Origin: Actinomycetota bacterium
GTDB lineage: Bacteria > Actinomycetota > Thermoleophilia > Gaiellales > Gaiellaceae
Direction: 5' to 3'
NCBI GenBank assembly: GCA_013816245.1
Contig: JACDEU010000006.1
Span: forward strand, 1-64,000
Length of the DNA stretch: 64,000 nucleotides
Part shown: piece after piece, positions 5,579 through 24,124 of the stretch
Numbering within the stretch: the first letter of the stretch is position 1
How the letters are laid out: the number at the start of each line of letters is the position of its first letter
The notes under the pieces: model-generated
What the model saw: only the letters and a program-made list of their open reading frames with translations
What the model was told of the DNA's origin: nothing
The model's database searches: none
Made by a program: the position numbers and the translations under genes

Positions 5579-6515
5579 CGCCACTGCCGGCTTTCGGGCC
5601 TATATGGGAGCACGTGGTGCGCGCCGATTTTGGCACGGCTACTACAACATCAAGAGCATTGACCACTACACCGGAGCACCGCTTGCCATAGGCATTTACT
5701 CGGCGTCGAAGAACGAACACACCTGTTATCCAGACCTGTTTGAGCGCCTGCAACGGAACATTGGGGGCAACCCGGAGAGCATCGTTGCTGATAAGGGCTT
5801 CTCGATTGAAGCCGTCTTCGCGCACAACACGAATAACGGCGTGGCCTCGGTTATTCCCTGGCGCAAGGGCAAAGGGCGCTTGCAGCGCCAGGACTTTGAC
5901 ACGCACGACAGGCACGGCATCCCGCGCTGCAAGCACTGCGGCGCTGAGTGTGAGTTCATCCGCTTCCGCGTCGAGAAGGGCGGCCCTCGTCTTTGGTTTC
6001 GTTGTCTGAACCAGGCCAATAGAACGCCGGCGGCTTGCGCGCGTATTCAGTCGATCACTTGTAAGACCGACTACCGGCTGTTGCTGCCGCTTTGGCGCAC
6101 CGAGCCCATCTACCACGAGCTCGCTAGCAGTCACTCGCAGTACGAGCGAGTTCATCGCCATTGGCGCGAGCGTTACTTGGTTGCCGGTGACAATCTGGCG
6201 ACCCGCCCGAAGCGCCGGGGGATTGGCTGCCAGGAGCTACGCGCCCAGGCGGCACTGCTCGCTGAGTGGCTGCGCATCTCTTGGCGTGAAGGTTGGCTTG
6301 GCAGCGCGAGACGCAACAAGAAGTCGCCGGCGCGCTACGCCTCCTTTGGCGTTACTGGCAGCCGGGGCCTTAAGAAGTTCCGCATCAAGGCTGGCCTTCG
6401 TGTTCCGTACGGCCAGCAGGCCGCATTGCTTGGCCTTGGCGAAGCAACGCCGCCCTCTCGTCGCGTTGCTGCACCACCGGGTGACCCGCCCGACTACGGC
6501 GGCGTCCCCTTCTAG
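5529..6515 (+). CDS. DDE transposase, C-terminal half (+1 frame)
   Basis: The C-terminal half of the element's transposase, in the +1 frame relative to 4886-5578. True family sequence begins near HWYRTLDATAG. It contains the second catalytic acid (IVADKGF, D88 of this frame), the RHGIPRCKHCG segment with later cysteines that may form a zinc ribbon, and LLLPLWRT. The ATG at 5529 is unlikely to be a natural start, because the residues before HWYRT are not family-like. Reading R-I-G from the first frame and then skipping one base gives a continuous protein of about 550 residues. Confidence 0.7.
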   Translation: MDDCASVLDQHWYRTLDATAGFRAYMGARGARRFWHGYYNIKSIDHYTGAPLAIGIYSASKNEHTCYPDLFERLQRNIGGNPESIVADKGFSIEAVFAHNTNNGVASVIPWRKGKGRLQRQDFDTHDRHGIPRCKHCGAECEFIRFRVEKGGPRLWFRCLNQANRTPAACARIQSITCKTDYRLLLPLWRTEPIYHELASSHSQYERVHRHWRERYLVAGDNLATRPKRRGIGCQELRAQAALLAEWLRISWREGWLGSARRNKKSPARYASFGVTGSRGLKKFRIKAGLRVPYGQQAALLGLGEATPPSRRVAAPPGDPPDYGGVPF

Positions 6516-11856: not shown

Positions 11857-12582
11857 ATGGGTCTGCTGTCCCGAGCCGGCGAGATCATCAGGGCGAAGTT
11901 CAACTCCCTGCTCAACCGAGCTGAGAACCCGAACGAGACGCTCGACTACTCCTACGAGAAGCAGCTCACCTCGCTGCAGAACGTCAAGCGGGGCGTCGCG
12001 GACGTCGTGACAGCGAAGAAGCGCCTCGAGCTCCAGACGCAGCAGCTGGAGCAGAACGTCCTCAAGCTCGACACGCAGGCCCGCCAGGCGGTGGCGGCCG
12101 GCCGCGAGGACCTCGCGCGGCAGGCGCTCGAGCGGAAGTCCGGGATCCAGCAGCAGCTGCAGGATCTCGACACGCAGGTGAAGCAGCTCGCAGACCAGCA
12201 GCAGAAGCTCGTCGACAGCCAGAAGCAACTCGAGACGAAGGTCGAGCAGTTCCGCTCGCAGAAGGAAGTCATCAAGGCGCAGTACTCCGCAGCCGAGGCA
12301 CAGGTGCGGATCGGTGAGGCGGCGACCGGGATCGGGCGCGAGATGGACAACACCGGTCTCGCGATTCAGCGCGCGAAGGATAAGACGGAGCAGATGCAGG
12401 CGCGCGCGTCGGCGATCGACGAGCTCGTCTCCTCGGGAGATCTCCAGGAGCTCGGCTCGGACAAGACGCAGCTCGACCGTGAGCTCACGCAACTCGCCTC
12501 GCAGCAGCAGGTCGACAAGGAGCTTGAGCAGCTCAAGGCCGAAGTCGGCTCAGGCGGAGAGAGTAAGGAGCTCGAAGGCTAG
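11857..12582 (+). CDS. pspA: PspA/IM30 (ESCRT-III-like) membrane-stress protein
   Basis: 241 residues from ATG 11857, chosen over TTG 11851 because GAGGAGG at 11839-11847 sits at proper spacing. The protein is almost wholly alpha-helical coiled coil, with long runs of Q, K and E, and begins with the amphipathic helix GLLSRAGEIIRAKFNSLL that binds membranes. PspA polymerises on damaged membranes to limit proton leak. The C-terminus is short. The functional partner PspAB with HtpX is 10 kb away at 22.6-24.1 kb. Confidence 0.9.
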   Translation: MGLLSRAGEIIRAKFNSLLNRAENPNETLDYSYEKQLTSLQNVKRGVADVVTAKKRLELQTQQLEQNVLKLDTQARQAVAAGREDLARQALERKSGIQQQLQDLDTQVKQLADQQQKLVDSQKQLETKVEQFRSQKEVIKAQYSAAEAQVRIGEAATGIGREMDNTGLAIQRAKDKTEQMQARASAIDELVSSGDLQELGSDKTQLDRELTQLASQQQVDKELEQLKAEVGSGGESKELEG

Positions 12583-17871: not shown

Positions 17872-18503
17872 GTGCCTCTCTGCGCGTCTGAACCTGGAGC
17901 TTTGGTCGAAGGAACGAAGCAGGCACTCGACCACGCGGGTGGCTTCGAGGTGGTCGGCGAAGCCTCGAACGGGGCGCAGGTTCTGCCGCTGGTCAGGCGG
18001 TTAAAGCCGGATCTCGTTCTCCTCGACCTCCGGATGCCGCAGATGGACGGGCTCAGTTGCCTCTCGAAGATCCGCAAGGAATTCCCCGACATGAAGGTGG
18101 CGATCCTCTCGGCGACGCAGGATCCTTCCTCCATCGAGACGGCGTTGAAGCGCGGCGCGAACGCCTACATCATGAAGACGGTCAACCCGGAAGACCTCGC
18201 GGCCGCGTTACGCCAGACGGTGGAGGGAACCGTCTTCACCACCGCCGGAGTCTCGGATGATCACGGTCAGAGGCGGCCAAAGCGGCTGGGCTAACGGAGC
18301 GTGAGGTCGGGATTCTCCGAGCCGTCGCGCGCGGCCTCTCGAACGAGGCGATCGCCAAGGAGCTCTGGGTCGCCGAACAGACGGTCAAGTTTCACCTCAC
18401 GAACATCTACCGCAAGCTCGAGGTCTCGAACAGGACCGAAGCGGCGCGCTATGCCTTCGAGCAAGGGCTCGTCGAGCACGGCGTCGACGGCCACCCGCTC
18501 TAG
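17872..18503 (+). pseudogene. NarL/FixJ response regulator, frameshifted
   Basis: The first frame encodes a receiver domain (FEVVGEASNGAQ, phosphoacceptor Asp in LVLLDLRMPQMDG, Lys in AYIMKTVNPEDL) and ends at TAA 18294. The LuxR-type helix-turn-helix continues in the -1 frame from about 18273 (GLTEREVGILRAVARGLS, AEQTVKFHLTNIYRKL) to TAG 18503. A one-base deletion near 18255-18275 explains this. The receiver N-terminus also lacks the conserved acidic pair (CASEPGALVEG where VDDHxLVxEG is expected), so the gene is damaged twice. Confidence 0.8.
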
Positions 18504-19704
18504 GCGGGCACGGGTTCCTCCGCAGCCACGGCTTCGGGTCCGCGCGTCAACAAGTAGGCACCGCAGGCTGCCACCGTGACGCTCATCAGCACGACGGTCA
18601 CCCGGTAGTCGATCACGGTCGCGAGCGCAGCGCCGACTGCGATCGAAACCGTCTGCGGCGTGCCGACCAGGGTCTCCGCGGCGCCGGCGACACGTCCCTG
18701 CAGCCTCGCAGGCGAACGCAGCTGGATCGCTGTCGCAAAGCCGACGATGAACCACGCGATGCCCGCTCCCGCAACCGCGATTCCCACGAGCACAAGCAGG
18801 AGACTCGAGGAGACAAAGCTCAGCTCACCGAAGGCGAAGAGTCCCATGCCGAACCCGACGAGCTTCACGTCGCCGATTCGGCGCAAGACGCGAGCAGCCG
18901 TCACTCCGCCGGCGATCGCGCCGACTCCCTGCAGAGAGCTCAAGACGCCGAAGAACGACGTCGACCGGTGCAACCCCTGGTCGAGAACGGCGAAGATCAC
19001 CGTTTCCGAGAAGCCGACGAAGAGCAGGCAGAAACCGGTCGCGACGACGATCTGACGAAGAGGCAAAGTGCGGGCGATGTGGCGGGCTCCGGCCAGGAGC
19101 TCCTCCACGAAGTGATGCTCCGCCCGCGCGAAGCGAGGCTCGTCGACCTTGAGCGACAGAAGCGCGAACACCACCGCGACGAAGCTGACCGAGTCGAGCA
19201 CCGCGACGGCCCCGCCGCCGAACGAGACGTAGATCCCGGCGCCGACCAGCGGCGCGATCAGGCGGAGCCCTTCTCGAACGGTCTGGAACAAACCATTCGC
19301 CTCGCCGAGCAGGTCGCGCGGCAGGATCACGGTCATGAACGCCGACCGCGCGGCGGCGGCGAGCGTGCCGGCGGCGCCGTAAAACGCCGCAACCGCGTAG
19401 ATGATCCAGGCGTCGCTGCGATCGTGGACGAACAGAAGCGACAGGACCATGACCGACTCGACCGAGTAGGTGGCGATCATCACCTTGCGCCGCGACAACC
19501 GGTCGACCAGGAGGCCGGCCAAGGGCGAGAGCAGCGAAGGAAGCGCGAGCGCGAAGAAGACGAGGCCGGCAGCCGAGTTGCTGTCCGTCAGATCCTTCAT
19601 CCAGACGCCGAGTGCGATGAAGATCGCCCAGTCGCCGAACACGGACACACCGACCACCCGAAGAGAAAGACGCGGGCGTCCCTGATCCGCAACAGCTCGC
19701 GCAT
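18500..19704 (-). pseudogene. MFS transporter, frame break at the N-terminus
   Basis: About 400 residues if read from ATG 19704 (MRELLRIRDARVFLFGWS). The frame must change near 19650 to continue as VSVFGDWAIFIALGVW. The site contains GGTGTGTCC, where one extra TG would explain the break. From GTG 19657 the remaining 385-residue frame is open and covers nearly all twelve helices, so a shortened product is possible. It is a drug/metabolite-efflux-like major facilitator. Its ATG overlaps the previous gene's stop as TGATG. Last gene of the RHH-DUF4097 operon. Confidence 0.75.
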
Positions 19705-21024
19705 CAGGTCTTCGACTGCTCGAGTGTGAGCGCGGCCGCGTCGGCCAGGAGCGAATCGACGAGGACGTCGTCGCCCTCGATGGGCTCCGGCATGTCGCCG
19801 ATCGAGCGGACCGGCGAGAACAGCACCGGCAGGAACGGCAAACAGCAGCCGATTCCGCCGATGATCAGCGTCTCCTTCAGGCCGAGCCACGTGCCAAGTG
19901 CTCCGCCGAGCAGTGCCCCGAGCGGGATCGTTCCCCAGACGATGAACCGCATCACGGAGTTCATCCGGCCCTGGATTCGTCCCGGCGTGATCGTCTGGCG
20001 CAGGCTGACCTGCGTCACGTTGTAGAGCACGTTCGTGAAGGCGCCGACGAGCATCGCGGGGCCGAGGACGGCAAGCGCCGCAGTCCCATGAGGCGCGAAT
20101 GCCGCGACGAGGAACATCGGCCCGCCGAGCACCGAGGCCGCGATGATCGTCCGCCCCACCCCGAGCCACCTGGAGATGCGGCCCGACGTGAACGCCGCCA
20201 GCAGCGCTCCGACGTTCGAGATCGTGAAGGCAAGACCGATGACGGCCGGACGCAGGTCGAGGACGCGCACCGCATAGACCAGCAGCACCGCAGACCAGAG
20301 GCTCCCGAAGAAGTTGAAGGTCGCGGTGCACGCGGCGATGTTCTTCAGGTACGGATGGCCGAAGACGTAGCGCAGACCTTCGGCGATCTCGTCGCGCATG
20401 CGCTGCGATACACCTGCTTCACGCCTCGGCGGTGGCTCGGCCTTGCGGATCCGGAAGATGAGGAGCGCCGAGCCGAGGAAGCTCACGGCGTCGAAGACGA
20501 TCGCGACGGGCGCGCTCAGCAGGTCGACGATGAGCCCGGCAAGGCCGGGACCACCGAGTTGCGCGCGAGCGGCTGATCTCGAGCTTCGAGTTCCCCTCGA
20601 CGAGCTGGTGGCGATCGACGAGCGCGGGCAGATACGCCTGGTAGGCGACGTCGAAGAAGACGGTCGCGATCCCGACGAGAAAGCCGACTGCGAAGAGCTG
20701 CCAGATCGTCAGGGCGTCGAACGCGTACGCAACGGGAATCGAGATCAGCAACGCCGCGCGGGCGAGATCGCCGAGGACGAGGATCGGTCGCCGGGGCAGC
20801 CGGTCGACCCACACGCCCGCCGGCAGGCTCACGAGGACGAACGGGAGAAACTCGACAACGTTCAGCGCCGCGACCTCGAACACCGACGCGTGCAGCACGA
20901 TCACTGCTGTGAGCGGCAACGCGAGCGCGCTGAACTGCGTCCCGAACTGACTGACGGTCTCCGCCGACCAGAGCTTCAGAAAATCCGAGTGCTGCCAGAG
21001 ACCCCGTTCTGGCCGGAGGTTCAC
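19704..21024 (-). pseudogene. Second MFS transporter, frameshifted mid-gene
   Basis: The N-terminal half (201-residue frame from ATG 21024, beginning MNLRPERGLWQHSDFLKLW) is in frame until EISRS near 20565. The family sequence then continues in another frame as QLGGPGLAGLIVDLLSAPVA and on to TGA 19704. A loss of two bases in TCGCGCGCAA would account for it. Joined, the protein is a complete major facilitator of about 440 residues. Its ATG overlaps the DUF4097 stop as ATGA. Broken like its downstream paralogue. Confidence 0.8.
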
Positions 21025-21893
21025 GAGTGCTCGCTGAGCTCCAGCGCGGGCGCCCGCTCGATGAGCACGTCACCAGACACGGTCTTCGCAAACACCTCGA
21101 CGAGCGGGCTGTCGGGAGCGGGTTCCTGCGCGGGCGCGTCTCCGAGCTCGAGCTCCGAGCTCGTCGAGCCGCTCACCGTGTTCGCGTCGACGAAGACGCG
21201 GGCGCCGCTCCGAATGCCGACGGTCACGTCGCCGGAGATCGCCTTCAACTCGATGCGTCCTTTCAACACCGCTTCGTAACGCTGGTCACCGGAGACGGTG
21301 TTGGCGCCGATGGAGGCTCGCGCATCACGAACGTGCACGTCGCCCGAGACGAGCTGGGCCCGAAGGTCGCCGCCCACGGAGTCCACGTGGAGGTCACCGG
21401 ACACGCTCTGCACCTCGAGCGACGCGTGCGCGCGGCCCAGATGCACGTCGCCGCTCGCCGTCTTGATGCGAGCTGTTCCGCGGGCCTCCTCGAGCTGGAG
21501 ATCGCCAGAGGCCGTCTTGATCTCGACGCCGCCGTACTCCCCATGCGCCCTGAGATCGGCAGACTTCGTGCGGACGTCCAGGTCTGCACCCTTGGGACAG
21601 ATGACGCGCAGGCGAACGTCGGGCCCGCCGAACCGGATGTCCGGGCCTCGGCTGAGTGAGATGAAGATTCCCTGGCGCGACTTCGCCTCGACGACCACCT
21701 CGTGCCCGTCGCCGCGCTTGATCAGCTCGATGCGGGAGTTGTCGACGAGGTCACGGACGGCATCGTTGTTCGAGATCGCCTCGAGCTCGATGCTCGTCTG
21801 GTCCGTGTTGGACGTCTCGATCTCGATCTCGCCGGCAGGGATCTCGAGGTTGAGCAGCAGGGGTCCCGGAGTTGAATAGGTCTCGGTCCGCAT
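21021..21893 (-). CDS. DUF4097 beta-helix repeat protein
   Basis: 290 residues from ATG 21893, overlapping the upstream stop as TGATG. From about 105 on it is made of short beta repeats with the pattern SGDxxxxxxxG (TASGDLQLEEARG, TASGDVHLGRAHA, SVSGDLHVDSVGG and so on), the DUF4097 signature of a right-handed beta helix. There is no signal peptide or membrane segment, so it is probably cytoplasmic, unlike the many anchored family members. Fourth-last gene product of a five-gene operon between a small protein and two MFS genes. Function unknown. Confidence 0.85.
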   Translation of the reverse strand: MRTETYSTPGPLLLNLEIPAGEIEIETSNTDQTSIELEAISNNDAVRDLVDNSRIELIKRGDGHEVVVEAKSRQGIFISLSRGPDIRFGGPDVRLRVICPKGADLDVRTKSADLRAHGEYGGVEIKTASGDLQLEEARGTARIKTASGDVHLGRAHASLEVQSVSGDLHVDSVGGDLRAQLVSGDVHVRDARASIGANTVSGDQRYEAVLKGRIELKAISGDVTVGIRSGARVFVDANTVSGSTSSELELGDAPAQEPAPDSPLVEVFAKTVSGDVLIERAPALELSEHS

Positions 21894-22066
21894 CAGATGA
21901 TGTAGCGGCCCGCGTTGAAGTGTTGGATGTCGCCGCGAATTACGTCGCGGGCGTGAATCGTCTTCTCGTAGGAGACGCGCACCGGCTTTTCGTCGCGGAG
22001 CTTGTTCGCTTCGCGGCGCGGAATCAGCGCCAGTGCCAGTCCGAATGGGAGAGGAAGGACGTGCAT
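21893..22066 (-). CDS. Small protein of the RHH-DUF4097 operon
   Basis: 57 residues from ATG 22066, preceded by AAAGGAG at good spacing; a TTG at 22081 would overlap the previous gene. The N-terminus MHVLPLPFGLALALIP has one short hydrophobic run, followed by a charged segment (RREANKLRDEKPVRVSYEK). Its TGA overlaps the ATG of the DUF4097 gene. No family recognised. Tight coupling on both sides makes it a real gene. Confidence 0.65.
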   Translation of the reverse strand: MHVLPLPFGLALALIPRREANKLRDEKPVRVSYEKTIHARDVIRGDIQHFNAGRYII

Positions 22067-22077
22067 CGTCGCTCCTT

Positions 22078-22530
22078 TCAACTTTGGCCGTAGCCAGTCA
22101 TGCGGCGTCCACCGGGGTGGTTGCGCCGCTTTGGGTCCGCACTGCGTATGATCTGCTGCAGCAGCCAGGTGTTCGCCGAAACGCCGGCTTCCTGGGCGGC
22201 ACCGTCGACGATCGTCTTGAGCGTCTCGGGCAGTCGCAGCGTGATCCGCGCGGTGAGGTCTTCGAGCCCCGATGGCGGTGGCGCGCCGGGATCTGGGATG
22301 TAGACGAGCTCGGGCTCTCCGGCCGACACGCGCACTTCCACGTGTCCGTCGGGAAGCTGGTTCGTGAGCTCCGCGGCGGCCTCGCCGAGGGCATCCATCA
22401 GCCGGAGTCGGAGGGATGACTCGAGAGCTGTTGCGATCCGGCGTGCGGCTTCGGCAACCGCCTCGTCGCCGATCCCGGCGACGTTGGCCAGATCCTGTTG
22501 AAGTGCCTCGACATAGGCCGCCACGTCCAT
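22078..22530 (-). CDS. Ribbon-helix-helix regulator (HicB/Arc-like C-terminus)
   Basis: 150 residues from ATG 22530 (GTG 22539 is possible). The C-terminal region (about 90-130) reads LTARITLRLPETLKTIVDGAAQEAGVSANTWLLQQII, a beta strand and two helices of the ribbon-helix-helix fold as in HicB and Arc repressors. The N-terminal 90 residues are helical and acidic. It heads a five-gene operon, and two perfect palindromes with TGTCA cores lie directly upstream, so it is probably an autorepressor of the operon. Confidence 0.75.
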   Translation of the reverse strand: MDVAAYVEALQQDLANVAGIGDEAVAEAARRIATALESSLRLRLMDALGEAAAELTNQLPDGHVEVRVSAGEPELVYIPDPGAPPPSGLEDLTARITLRLPETLKTIVDGAAQEAGVSANTWLLQQIIRSADPKRRNHPGGRRMTGYGQS

Positions 22531-22541
22531 GGACGGCACTA

Positions 22542-22560
22542 TGACATCAATGTGATGTCA
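22542..22560. promoter_or_regulatory. Palindromic operator 1 (TGACATCA-ATG-TGATGTCA)
   Basis: Perfect 8-bp inverted repeat with a 3-base spacer, 11 bases upstream of the RHH gene's ATG. Cores are TGACA/TGTCA. It is placed to overlap the promoter of the minus-strand operon. Further single TGTCA or GTCA copies lie between it and operator 2. Confidence 0.65.
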
Positions 22561-22588
22561 CGTCAAGCCTGAAATGGTGTCACCGACG

Positions 22589-22601
22589 TGTCATGATGAC
22601 A
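22589..22601. promoter_or_regulatory. Palindromic operator 2 (TGTCAT-G-ATGACA)
   Basis: A second perfect inverted repeat with the same TGTCA core, 29 bases from operator 1. Between them lie GTCACGTCA and GGTGTCACC half-sites. Arrays of short half-sites are typical for ribbon-helix-helix repressors. Confidence 0.6.
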
Positions 22602-22630: not shown

Positions 22631-23200
22631 CTAGAGCGGCGCATCGAAGACCCCGAACCAGCGCGAAAGGTCCTCCTCGATGGGGAGCTCCTTCTCGAGC
22701 TTTGCCTTCAGCCCGAGCTCTTCCGCGTTGTCCCGCTCTTTGCCCTCCGCCGCGGGGACGAAGGGCCAGAAGGCGCCTCGCTTGTAGCCGTAGACCCAGT
22801 AGACGGGCCCTTTGCCGCCCTCGAACTTGAAGACGGCCGCGAGCAGCTGGCCCCCGAAGCCGGCCTCCTCCAGTCCCTGCGCGACGGCATGCACGCCGGT
22901 CACCTGGTCTTCCAGGTCTGAGTCCCGGACGATGATCCACGTGTAGCCAAACGTGTCCTCGCGGCGTTCGAGCTTCGAGCCGGACTCTGCGGCAACCCGC
23001 TCGAGCAGCTGTTGCAGGTCGTTCTCCGCGCGCACGAAATCGCCGGACGAGAGCGGCTTGAAGACAACCCCTCCCGTGCCGGCCGTCCGCAGTCCGAGCT
23101 CGGTCTCGAGCGTGACCGCCGCGGTGGTCAAGGCGAACAGGCGGTCCCGTGCCGGCCCTGCGAGCTTCTTCTTGCCGAAGAGGACGTCTCGGAGCCCCAA
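22631..23200 (-). CDS. pspAB: PspA-associated protein PspAB
   Basis: 189 residues from ATG 23200 (MGLRDVLFGKKKLAGPARDRLF). The full-length actinobacterial PspAB family pattern is present, including GYTWIIVRDSDLEDQV and the C-terminal YGYKRGAFWPFVP and DLSRWFGV. It follows htpX with only 9 bases between, the usual htpX-pspAB pairing. It acts with PspA and HtpX in envelope stress. Biochemical role unknown. Confidence 0.85.
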   Translation of the reverse strand: MGLRDVLFGKKKLAGPARDRLFALTTAAVTLETELGLRTAGTGGVVFKPLSSGDFVRAENDLQQLLERVAAESGSKLERREDTFGYTWIIVRDSDLEDQVTGVHAVAQGLEEAGFGGQLLAAVFKFEGGKGPVYWVYGYKRGAFWPFVPAAEGKERDNAEELGLKAKLEKELPIEEDLSRWFGVFDAPL

Positions 23201-23209
23201 CGCGGGGGA

Positions 23210-24124
23210 TCAGGCGACCGGTCGGCCCATTTCGCGGGCGATCTCCGCGAGGGCCGCAAGGCGCTTCTCGAGCGGCGGGTGCGTCGTGAACAGGCCGGCG
23301 ACGGACGTCTTGACGCTGGCGGGGACGATGAAGAAGGCGTTCATGCTCTCGACCTCGCGCAGATCGCGCTGCGGGATCCGGAACATCTCGCTCGAGATCT
23401 TCTGTAGGGCGCTCATCAGATGCTCGGGCGCGCCGGTGATGAGCGCAGAGCCTCTGTCCGCCGCAAACTCGCGGTAGCGCGAGATCGCGAGGATGAGGAT
23501 CTTGCTGAGGAAGTACGTCACCACGGAGACGAGCAACACGATCAGCCAGACCGGAACCTGGTTGTTGTCGCGGCCGCGGCCGCCGCCGCCGAACATCCCG
23601 CCGTACAGCCCGAACCGGGTCAGCACGCCGGCGAGCATTGCGAAGAAGCTCGCGATCGTCATGATGAGGACGTCGCGGTTCCCGATGTGCGACAGCTCGT
23701 GCGCGATCACGCCCTCGACCTCTCTCGGCTCGAGGCGCTGCCAGAGGCCGCGCGTCACCGCCACCGCCGCATGCTTCGGGCTCCGGCCGGTCGCGAAGGC
23801 ATTCGGGACGTCGGTGTCGATGATCGCGAGGCGCGGTTTCGGCAGATCGGCCAGGGCGCAGAGCCGCTCGACCATGTCGTGCAGCTCGGGCGCCTGGTCA
23901 CGCTCGACGATCTTGGCTCCGGACGCCGCCAGGGCCAGCTTGTCGGACGTGAAGTACTGGAAGAACGCGATCCCGACGACGATCAGGATCATCGGGACGA
24001 GCCCGACGCTCAGAACCTGGAAAAGGACGACCGCAAAGACGACGTACAGCAGTCCGAGCAATGAGCCCGTGACGAGCATTCGGAGGGTCAGACCGGCGTC
24101 GCGACCGTAAGACCTGCGTTTCAT
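23210..24124 (-). CDS. htpX: Membrane zinc protease HtpX
   Basis: 304 residues from ATG 24124. Two N-terminal membrane helices (about 15-60), the zinc motif HELSH at 142-146 followed by GNRD, two more helices, the third zinc ligand in REFAADRGSA, and a C-terminal THPPLEKRL. An M48 peptidase of the inner membrane that degrades damaged membrane proteins. Operon with pspAB. Divergent from the 24155 gene. Confidence 0.95.
   Translation of the reverse strand: MKRRSYGRDAGLTLRMLVTGSLLGLLYVVFAVVLFQVLSVGLVPMILIVVGIAFFQYFTSDKLALAASGAKIVERDQAPELHDMVERLCALADLPKPRLAIIDTDVPNAFATGRSPKHAAVAVTRGLWQRLEPREVEGVIAHELSHIGNRDVLIMTIASFFAMLAGVLTRFGLYGGMFGGGGRGRDNNQVPVWLIVLLVSVVTYFLSKILILAISRYREFAADRGSALITGAPEHLMSALQKISSEMFRIPQRDLREVESMNAFFIVPASVKTSVAGLFTTHPPLEKRLAALAEIAREMGRPVA

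Follow-up and report, generated by a model that had tools for sequence, protein, structure and literature searches.

Results

A minus-strand operon with an operator inside its own promoter

We analyzed a 64,000-nt stretch of DNA (positions 1-64,000 of contig JACDEU010000006.1, assembly GCA_013816245.1, 3.16 Mb in 123 contigs), referred to throughout as the window, and focused on an operon on its minus strand. As listed in Table 1, and in the order claimed in an initial annotation of this DNA, the operon encodes a ribbon-helix-helix (RHH) regulator, a 57-aa protein, a DUF4097 (Toastrack) protein, and two transporters of the major facilitator superfamily (MFS). The operon carries a palindromic operator inside its own promoter, and its RHH and Toastrack genes form a pair that is widespread in actinobacteria. 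The DUF4097 and MFS assignments of the initial annotation were confirmed: the Toastrack protein matches PF13349 at 73.1 bits against a curated cut-off of 22.9, and a domain profile scan of the window proteins gave clear MFS matches in both transporter genes, which are, however, both frameshifted as read, a point that the initial annotation omitted. The genes had also been described as overlapping end to end, which is so at the other junctions but not between the RHH gene and the gene for the 57-aa protein, which are separated by an 11-nt gap. With an RHH gene that adjoins a Toastrack gene and exporter genes that run in the same direction, the operon is of the RHH-Toastrack-transporter kind, albeit with broken MFS frames in this assembly.

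Table 1. Features of the operon, its promoter region, and the convergent gene in the window
Feature	Positions	Strand	Remarks
RHH regulator	22078..22530	-	ATG start preferred over GTG 22539
57-aa protein	21893..22066	-	Ribosome-binding-like site; no Pfam/NCBIfam match
DUF4097/Toastrack protein	21021..21893	-	PF13349, E 3e-20
First MFS gene	19704..21024	-	Frame broken near 20560-20570
Second MFS gene	18500..19705	-	Frame broken near 19650
Response-regulator gene	17872-18503		Convergent on operon; frame broken near 18273-18291
Sigma-70-like promoter TTGACG-17-CATAGT	22538..22566	-	1 found vs 0.1 expected in shuffles
Main operator, perfect dyad TGACATCA-n3-TGATGTCA	22542..22560		In promoter spacer
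Extra half-site TGGTGTCAC	22575..22583	+	22 bp from next site
Second dyad TGTCAT-C-ATGACA	22589..22601		Centre 44 bp (4 x 11) upstream of main operator

The spacer of the candidate promoter is filled by the main dyad. With 7 nt between the -10 element and the ATG, the operon mRNA is probably leaderless, and this ATG is the likelier start of the RHH gene because the GTG would overlap the -10 element. Both perfect palindromes expected from the initial annotation are present, together with one extra half-site; they share the TGTCA core, as had been stated, but in opposite orientation. The main dyad was matched once in the window at up to two mismatches, versus 0.01 expected in shuffles, and at the same stringency it was found across the whole assembly only at its own promoter. 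With no second such dyad in the genome at up to two mismatches (four additional sites lie at three mismatches), a regulon extending beyond the operon was rejected. Because the operator lies inside the promoter of the RHH protein's own operon, we infer that the RHH protein represses its own synthesis, in line with the earlier suggestion of a self-regulated operon tied to export genes.

The RHH-Toastrack pair is conserved, and transporters are optional

We next considered relatives in two sets, 101 related genomes and 80 loci (the best 80 of 180); the sets overlap in many contigs and cannot be treated as independent. The RHH protein was found in 40 of the 101 genomes. Of 41 places examined over a longer stretch, 40 have DUF4097 next to it, the remaining one being at a contig end. 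Similarly, a Toastrack gene lies directly downstream of the RHH gene in 77 of the 80 loci, the other three being at contig ends; the condition that would have refuted the initial annotation, no co-occurrence elsewhere, was thus checked and did not hold. Viewed from the other side, DUF4097 occurs in 46 of the 101 genomes. The RHH gene accompanies it in 39 of these and, truncated at a contig end, in G056, and the RHH profile matched nothing in the other six. In the window's own family, the RHH gene is present in every one of the 35 genomes with DUF4097, once in truncated form at a contig end. DUF4097 itself gave no match in one genome with the RHH gene, G028, where that gene is at a contig end.

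Transporter genes vary much more. Within 500 nt after the Toastrack gene, where MFS and Streptomyces-type ATP-binding cassette (ABC) transporters were the only families sought, an MFS gene was found in 30 of the 80 loci (two in a row in 15), an ABC gene in 2, and neither in 37, with the contig ending in 11. The MFS call for L098, among the 30, is weak (2e-6), and in L099, which falls under neither, an MFS match lies at a greater distance. RHH and Toastrack are the core of these operons, and the transporter is an optional accessory. We also noted that contigs titled Burkholderiales, Acidobacteriota, and Phenylobacterium (L085, L103, and L145) carry actinobacterial-like copies and are possibly misbinned.

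Half-sites recur upstream of the RHH gene in relatives

To follow the operator in relatives, we scored the half-site TGATGTCA with at most one mismatch within about 70 nt of the start in 78 of the 80 loci (L082 and L135, with less than 70 nt upstream, were left out). At least one half-site was found in 54 of 54 loci of a Thermoleophilia-rich group (L072-L126) and in 24 of 24 others (L127-L151), and at least two were found in 53 and 21 of them, respectively. The mean number per locus was 2.85 and 3.12, compared with 0.016 and 0.030 in random stretches from these same loci, figures to be read with the motif having been chosen on the first group and with counts inflated for near-self-reverse-complement variants, such as TGACGTCA, that are counted on both strands. 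The commonest distance between distinct half-sites is 11 bp, and in many relatives the half-sites extend to the start codon. The commonest distance from TTGAC to the start is 36 nt (22 places in the first group and 7 in the second). Among same-genus relatives, 6 of 8 have a GTCA-n3-TGAC dyad, like the second dyad, 45-120 nt upstream, as do 3 of 31 others, L069 with its short upstream region being left out of the count, and the same dyad is found close to the start, between neighboring half-sites, in 13 of those 31. A restriction of the second dyad to the genus was rejected given its presence in these three others.

In Streptomyces, the half-sites shift toward TGGYGCCA alongside an Asn in the recognition strand of the RHH protein. 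Position 6 is C in 7 of 9 forward half-sites that belong to five Asn-strand proteins, compared with 2 of 111 for proteins with Thr or Ser; counted by the last half-site only, the figures are 3 of 5 for Asn and 0 of 73 for the remainder (Fisher p 0.00013, a value that ignores kinship). Four of the five Asn cases are from Streptomyces, and the fifth is L070; the same genome also encodes a Thr copy, L067, with T in its half-sites. An earlier attempt at covariation with half-site position 3 was less clean. The covariation is suggestive of direct DNA recognition by the RHH protein, albeit confounded by kinship.

Protein products of the operon

The predicted model of the RHH regulator comprises N-terminal helices, a beta hairpin, a disordered linker, two RHH helices, and a disordered tail, with the RHH domain at about residues 95-132. 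The RHH identity proposed in the initial annotation stands in that a strand-helix-helix segment of this type was found, on weak sequence matches; the match to HicB (PF05534; E 0.001, 19.3 bits) falls below the cut-off of 21. A profile of relatives searched against the PDB retrieved 6ajm, a DUF1778 protein (0.0022), VapB26 (0.013), and Arc (0.12). The RHH alignment comprised 51 of 79 relatives and the window protein. A fold comparison of the N-terminal part with the PDB gave no significant match. As a separate observation, the RHH homologues at three Streptomyces loci (L152-L154, from position 6001) are annotated as HicB family antitoxins with no toxin annotated alongside, and the name looks misleading.

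The window protein ends in RRMTGYGQS, and a Gly followed by Tyr, Phe, or Trp is found within the last six residues of all 79 RHH proteins counted (L130, with no stop before the contig end, was excluded), on a linker of variable length. Because a conserved end is carried on a linker of variable length, the tail may serve as a docking peptide.

The Toastrack protein was modeled with a predicted local distance difference test score (pLDDT) of 92.2, and Foldseek retrieved 4QRK as the best match (5.9e-8) and 4OPW (6.5e-4), with modest query TM-scores of 0.23 and 0.31. The model thus has a beta-helix fold like that of 4QRK and 4OPW, which are named as Toastrack examples in PMC11237479. Sequence comparison with the PDB gave no match at E 0.01. 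The Toastrack alignment comprised 60 relatives and the window protein, drawn from 61 single full-length matches among the 77 loci.

The small protein matched no family in Pfam or NCBIfam. A small gene between the RHH and Toastrack genes was found in 42 of 77 loci, and 41 of these 42 are preceded by a ribosome-binding-like stretch, as judged by a loose pattern; its position is often kept, and its sequence is variable. Four of 32 small proteins (L041, L044, L046, and L063) contain a second RHH domain at E below 1e-5, and four more score E 0.005-0.009. The window protein scores E 9, and we do not claim it as an RHH relic. The tail of the RHH protein is shared by the small protein in 1 of 42 loci and, by eye, in 4 of 32 (L060, L062, L065, and L067; L065 and L124 are the same contig), and a general sharing of the tail was therefore discarded in favor of sharing in a few relatives.

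Discussion

Starting from the observed gene linkage, the operator within the promoter, and the conservation of both, we propose a model of an autorepressed stress or efflux operon in which repression, signal uptake, and export would be joined as follows. Dimers of the RHH protein would bind the 11-bp-phased TGATGTCA half-sites over the promoter spacer and keep their own operon low. The Toastrack protein would act as a signal adapter that, under membrane or drug stress, holds the RHH protein and lifts repression, most likely by gripping the conserved C-terminal tail, and the MFS pair (ABC or no transporter in other lineages) would, judging from its family, remove the inducing compound. The model has partial precedents in the strong interaction of YvlB, a DUF4097 protein, with PspA and LiaH (PMC9239133) and in the repressor and DUF4097 genes of the lltR operon (PMC6624303). 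Taken as a whole, we consider it evenly balanced between right and wrong.

Several points weigh against the model. The pLDDT of the RHH model is only moderate (74.7), and Arc, the best match to its fold, falls short of significance (E 0.41). The tail is unstructured in this model and, being basic, might contact DNA instead of Toastrack. The six genomes that have DUF4097 and no RHH-profile match all lie outside the window's family, and a family member, G015, contains an additional DUF4097 match, on a different contig for which no RHH gene is reported. Export is not a constant function, given the 37 loci with no MFS or ABC gene detected next to Toastrack, and both MFS frames are broken in the present assembly. 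The choice of the half-site motif on one group of relatives and the double counting of some variants belong here as well. Finally, the literature is divided on location: the DUF4097 domain is called extracellular in LiaG (PMC9239133) and an exoprotein in Listeria (PMC6624303), but PMC11237479 takes Toastrack proteins to be intracellular.

The broken frames could mean that the transporter part of the operon is a decaying pseudogene region, with the RHH, small, and Toastrack proteins as the working unit. Three frameshifts, in the response-regulator gene and both MFS genes, fall within 2.3 kb, whereas the RHH, DUF4097, PspAB, and HtpX genes are uninterrupted single frames. However, the breaks are in neighboring genes and on both strands, including the convergent gene, which suggests sequence error in the draft assembly; intact copies in relatives (MFS1 in L072, L074, and L075, MFS2 in L072, L075, and L076, and the response-regulator homologue in L032) make such error the likely cause, gene decay being possible. 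Further, both MFS genes keep high identity to the intact relatives beyond the breaks (MFS1, 68-73%; MFS2, 63-72%), and we therefore regard a pseudogene region as improbable. Far less probable still is that the RHH gene and the small gene form a toxin-antitoxin locus with a HicB-like antitoxin and a small toxin. Such a locus would fit the apparent autoregulation of the RHH gene, the small gene that follows it in 42 loci, and the name "toxin-antitoxin system HicB family antitoxin" given to 4 plasmid homologues among the 20 listed. Against it, the small protein lacks a family match, went undetected in 35 of 77 loci, and carries a second RHH domain in some relatives, whereas the constant partner of the RHH protein is Toastrack. 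HicA was not matched among the nine window proteins scanned, and a HicAB system was rejected on this ground and on the small protein's lack of a family.

It is possible, if on the unlikely side, that Toastrack is instead a co-repressor or an envelope-stress scaffold resembling the phage shock protein (PSP) or Lia systems, with membrane integrity being sensed, no drug exported, and the transporters mere passengers. The 37 loci with neither transporter would be explained, and genes for PspAB and HtpX lie just upstream of the operon (22631-24124), with PspA about 10 kb away (11860-12543), which makes this a phage-shock neighborhood. Of 9 same-genus loci, counting the window, 8 have PspAB close to the operon, compared with 0 of 21 other loci, for which the flanks covered about 1.5 kb only. 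The DUF4097 protein weakly matches LiaG and LiaX (NF049997, 43.8 of 285; NF038025, 30 of 350), far under the cut-offs. Consistent with a scaffold, Toastrack proteins have been proposed as a sub-membrane assembly platform (PMC11237479), and the YvlB interactions cited above point the same way. Conversely, the operon itself contains no PspA, PspC, LiaF-type protein (LiaI-LiaF-TM), or LiaRS, and no two-component gene, and its MFS genes are codirectional with overlapping ends.

The autorepressed stress or efflux model could also be taken further, to a phylum-wide one-component switch in which Toastrack is a direct anti-repressor that captures the RHH protein by its Gly-aromatic tail, the fast-evolving small protein is a decoy that tunes the response, and the exporter behind the switch (MFS, ABC, or none) differs by niche. 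The decoy idea comes from the small protein still being an RHH domain in some lineages and having the same tail end in others. This extension, in which the tail is the docking site for Toastrack, is speculative, and we think it rather unlikely. DUF4097 proteins are widespread and little characterized, and databases list some of the RHH proteins paired with them as antitoxins; the fixed partner, the shared operator, and the conserved tail offer three handles on Toastrack function.

Comparison with known systems

The initial annotation knew of no described system of this composition and considered a cytoplasmic DUF4097 partner of exporters to be new. Neither view can be upheld, because PMC11237479 reports Toastrack proteins, for which it argues an intracellular location, from operons that also encode transporters and, in Actinobacteria, an RHH regulator. 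The operon in the window likewise joins an RHH regulator, a Toastrack protein, and transporter genes, but the transporters of PMC11237479 are of the ABC type, and MFS has no occurrence in its main text. The operator array, the promoter, and the C-terminal tail reported here do not appear in its available passages, and in the accessible parts of the open-licence literature searched, we found no account of the operator array, the tail, the MFS variant, or what the pair does. The composition of the operon is a variant of the described kind in which MFS replaces ABC.

The Lia system is known for membrane-drug sensing; LiaG and LiaX share a DUF4097-type domain with the Toastrack protein, but the present operon has no LiaF, LiaS, or LiaR. 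In Listeria, the lltR operon resembles the present one in that a self-repressed regulator gene is followed by DUF4097, and it is about 100-fold up in an lltR mutant; it differs in that the regulator is of the PadR and not the RHH type, a DUF1700 membrane protein lies between, and, as described in PMC6624303, the operon includes no exporter.

Relatives are also found in Streptomyces, where three of the four regions opened (L152, L153, and L154) have the order HicB, DUF4097, ABC ATPase, and ABC permease. Like the operon in the window, these plasmid loci have a homologous RHH gene, an adjacent DUF4097 gene, exporter genes next to it, the same type of tail (TGWVR), and half-sites before the start codon, whereas their exporters are ABC and not MFS, their half-sites shift as described above, and no small gene is annotated between. 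The fourth region, L155 (3935-5397), is Lun1-Lun2 of the lunaemycin cluster, an RHH homologue followed by DUF4097, the function of which is listed as unknown in PMC9866976. Here a cytochrome P450 comes next, and elsewhere in the cluster a DrrAB-type pair, Lun25-26, called drug resistance, adjoins another DUF4097 protein, Lun27 (PMC9866976). The RHH-Toastrack pair thus sits in an antibiotic cluster as genes of unknown function, where it may control self-resistance.

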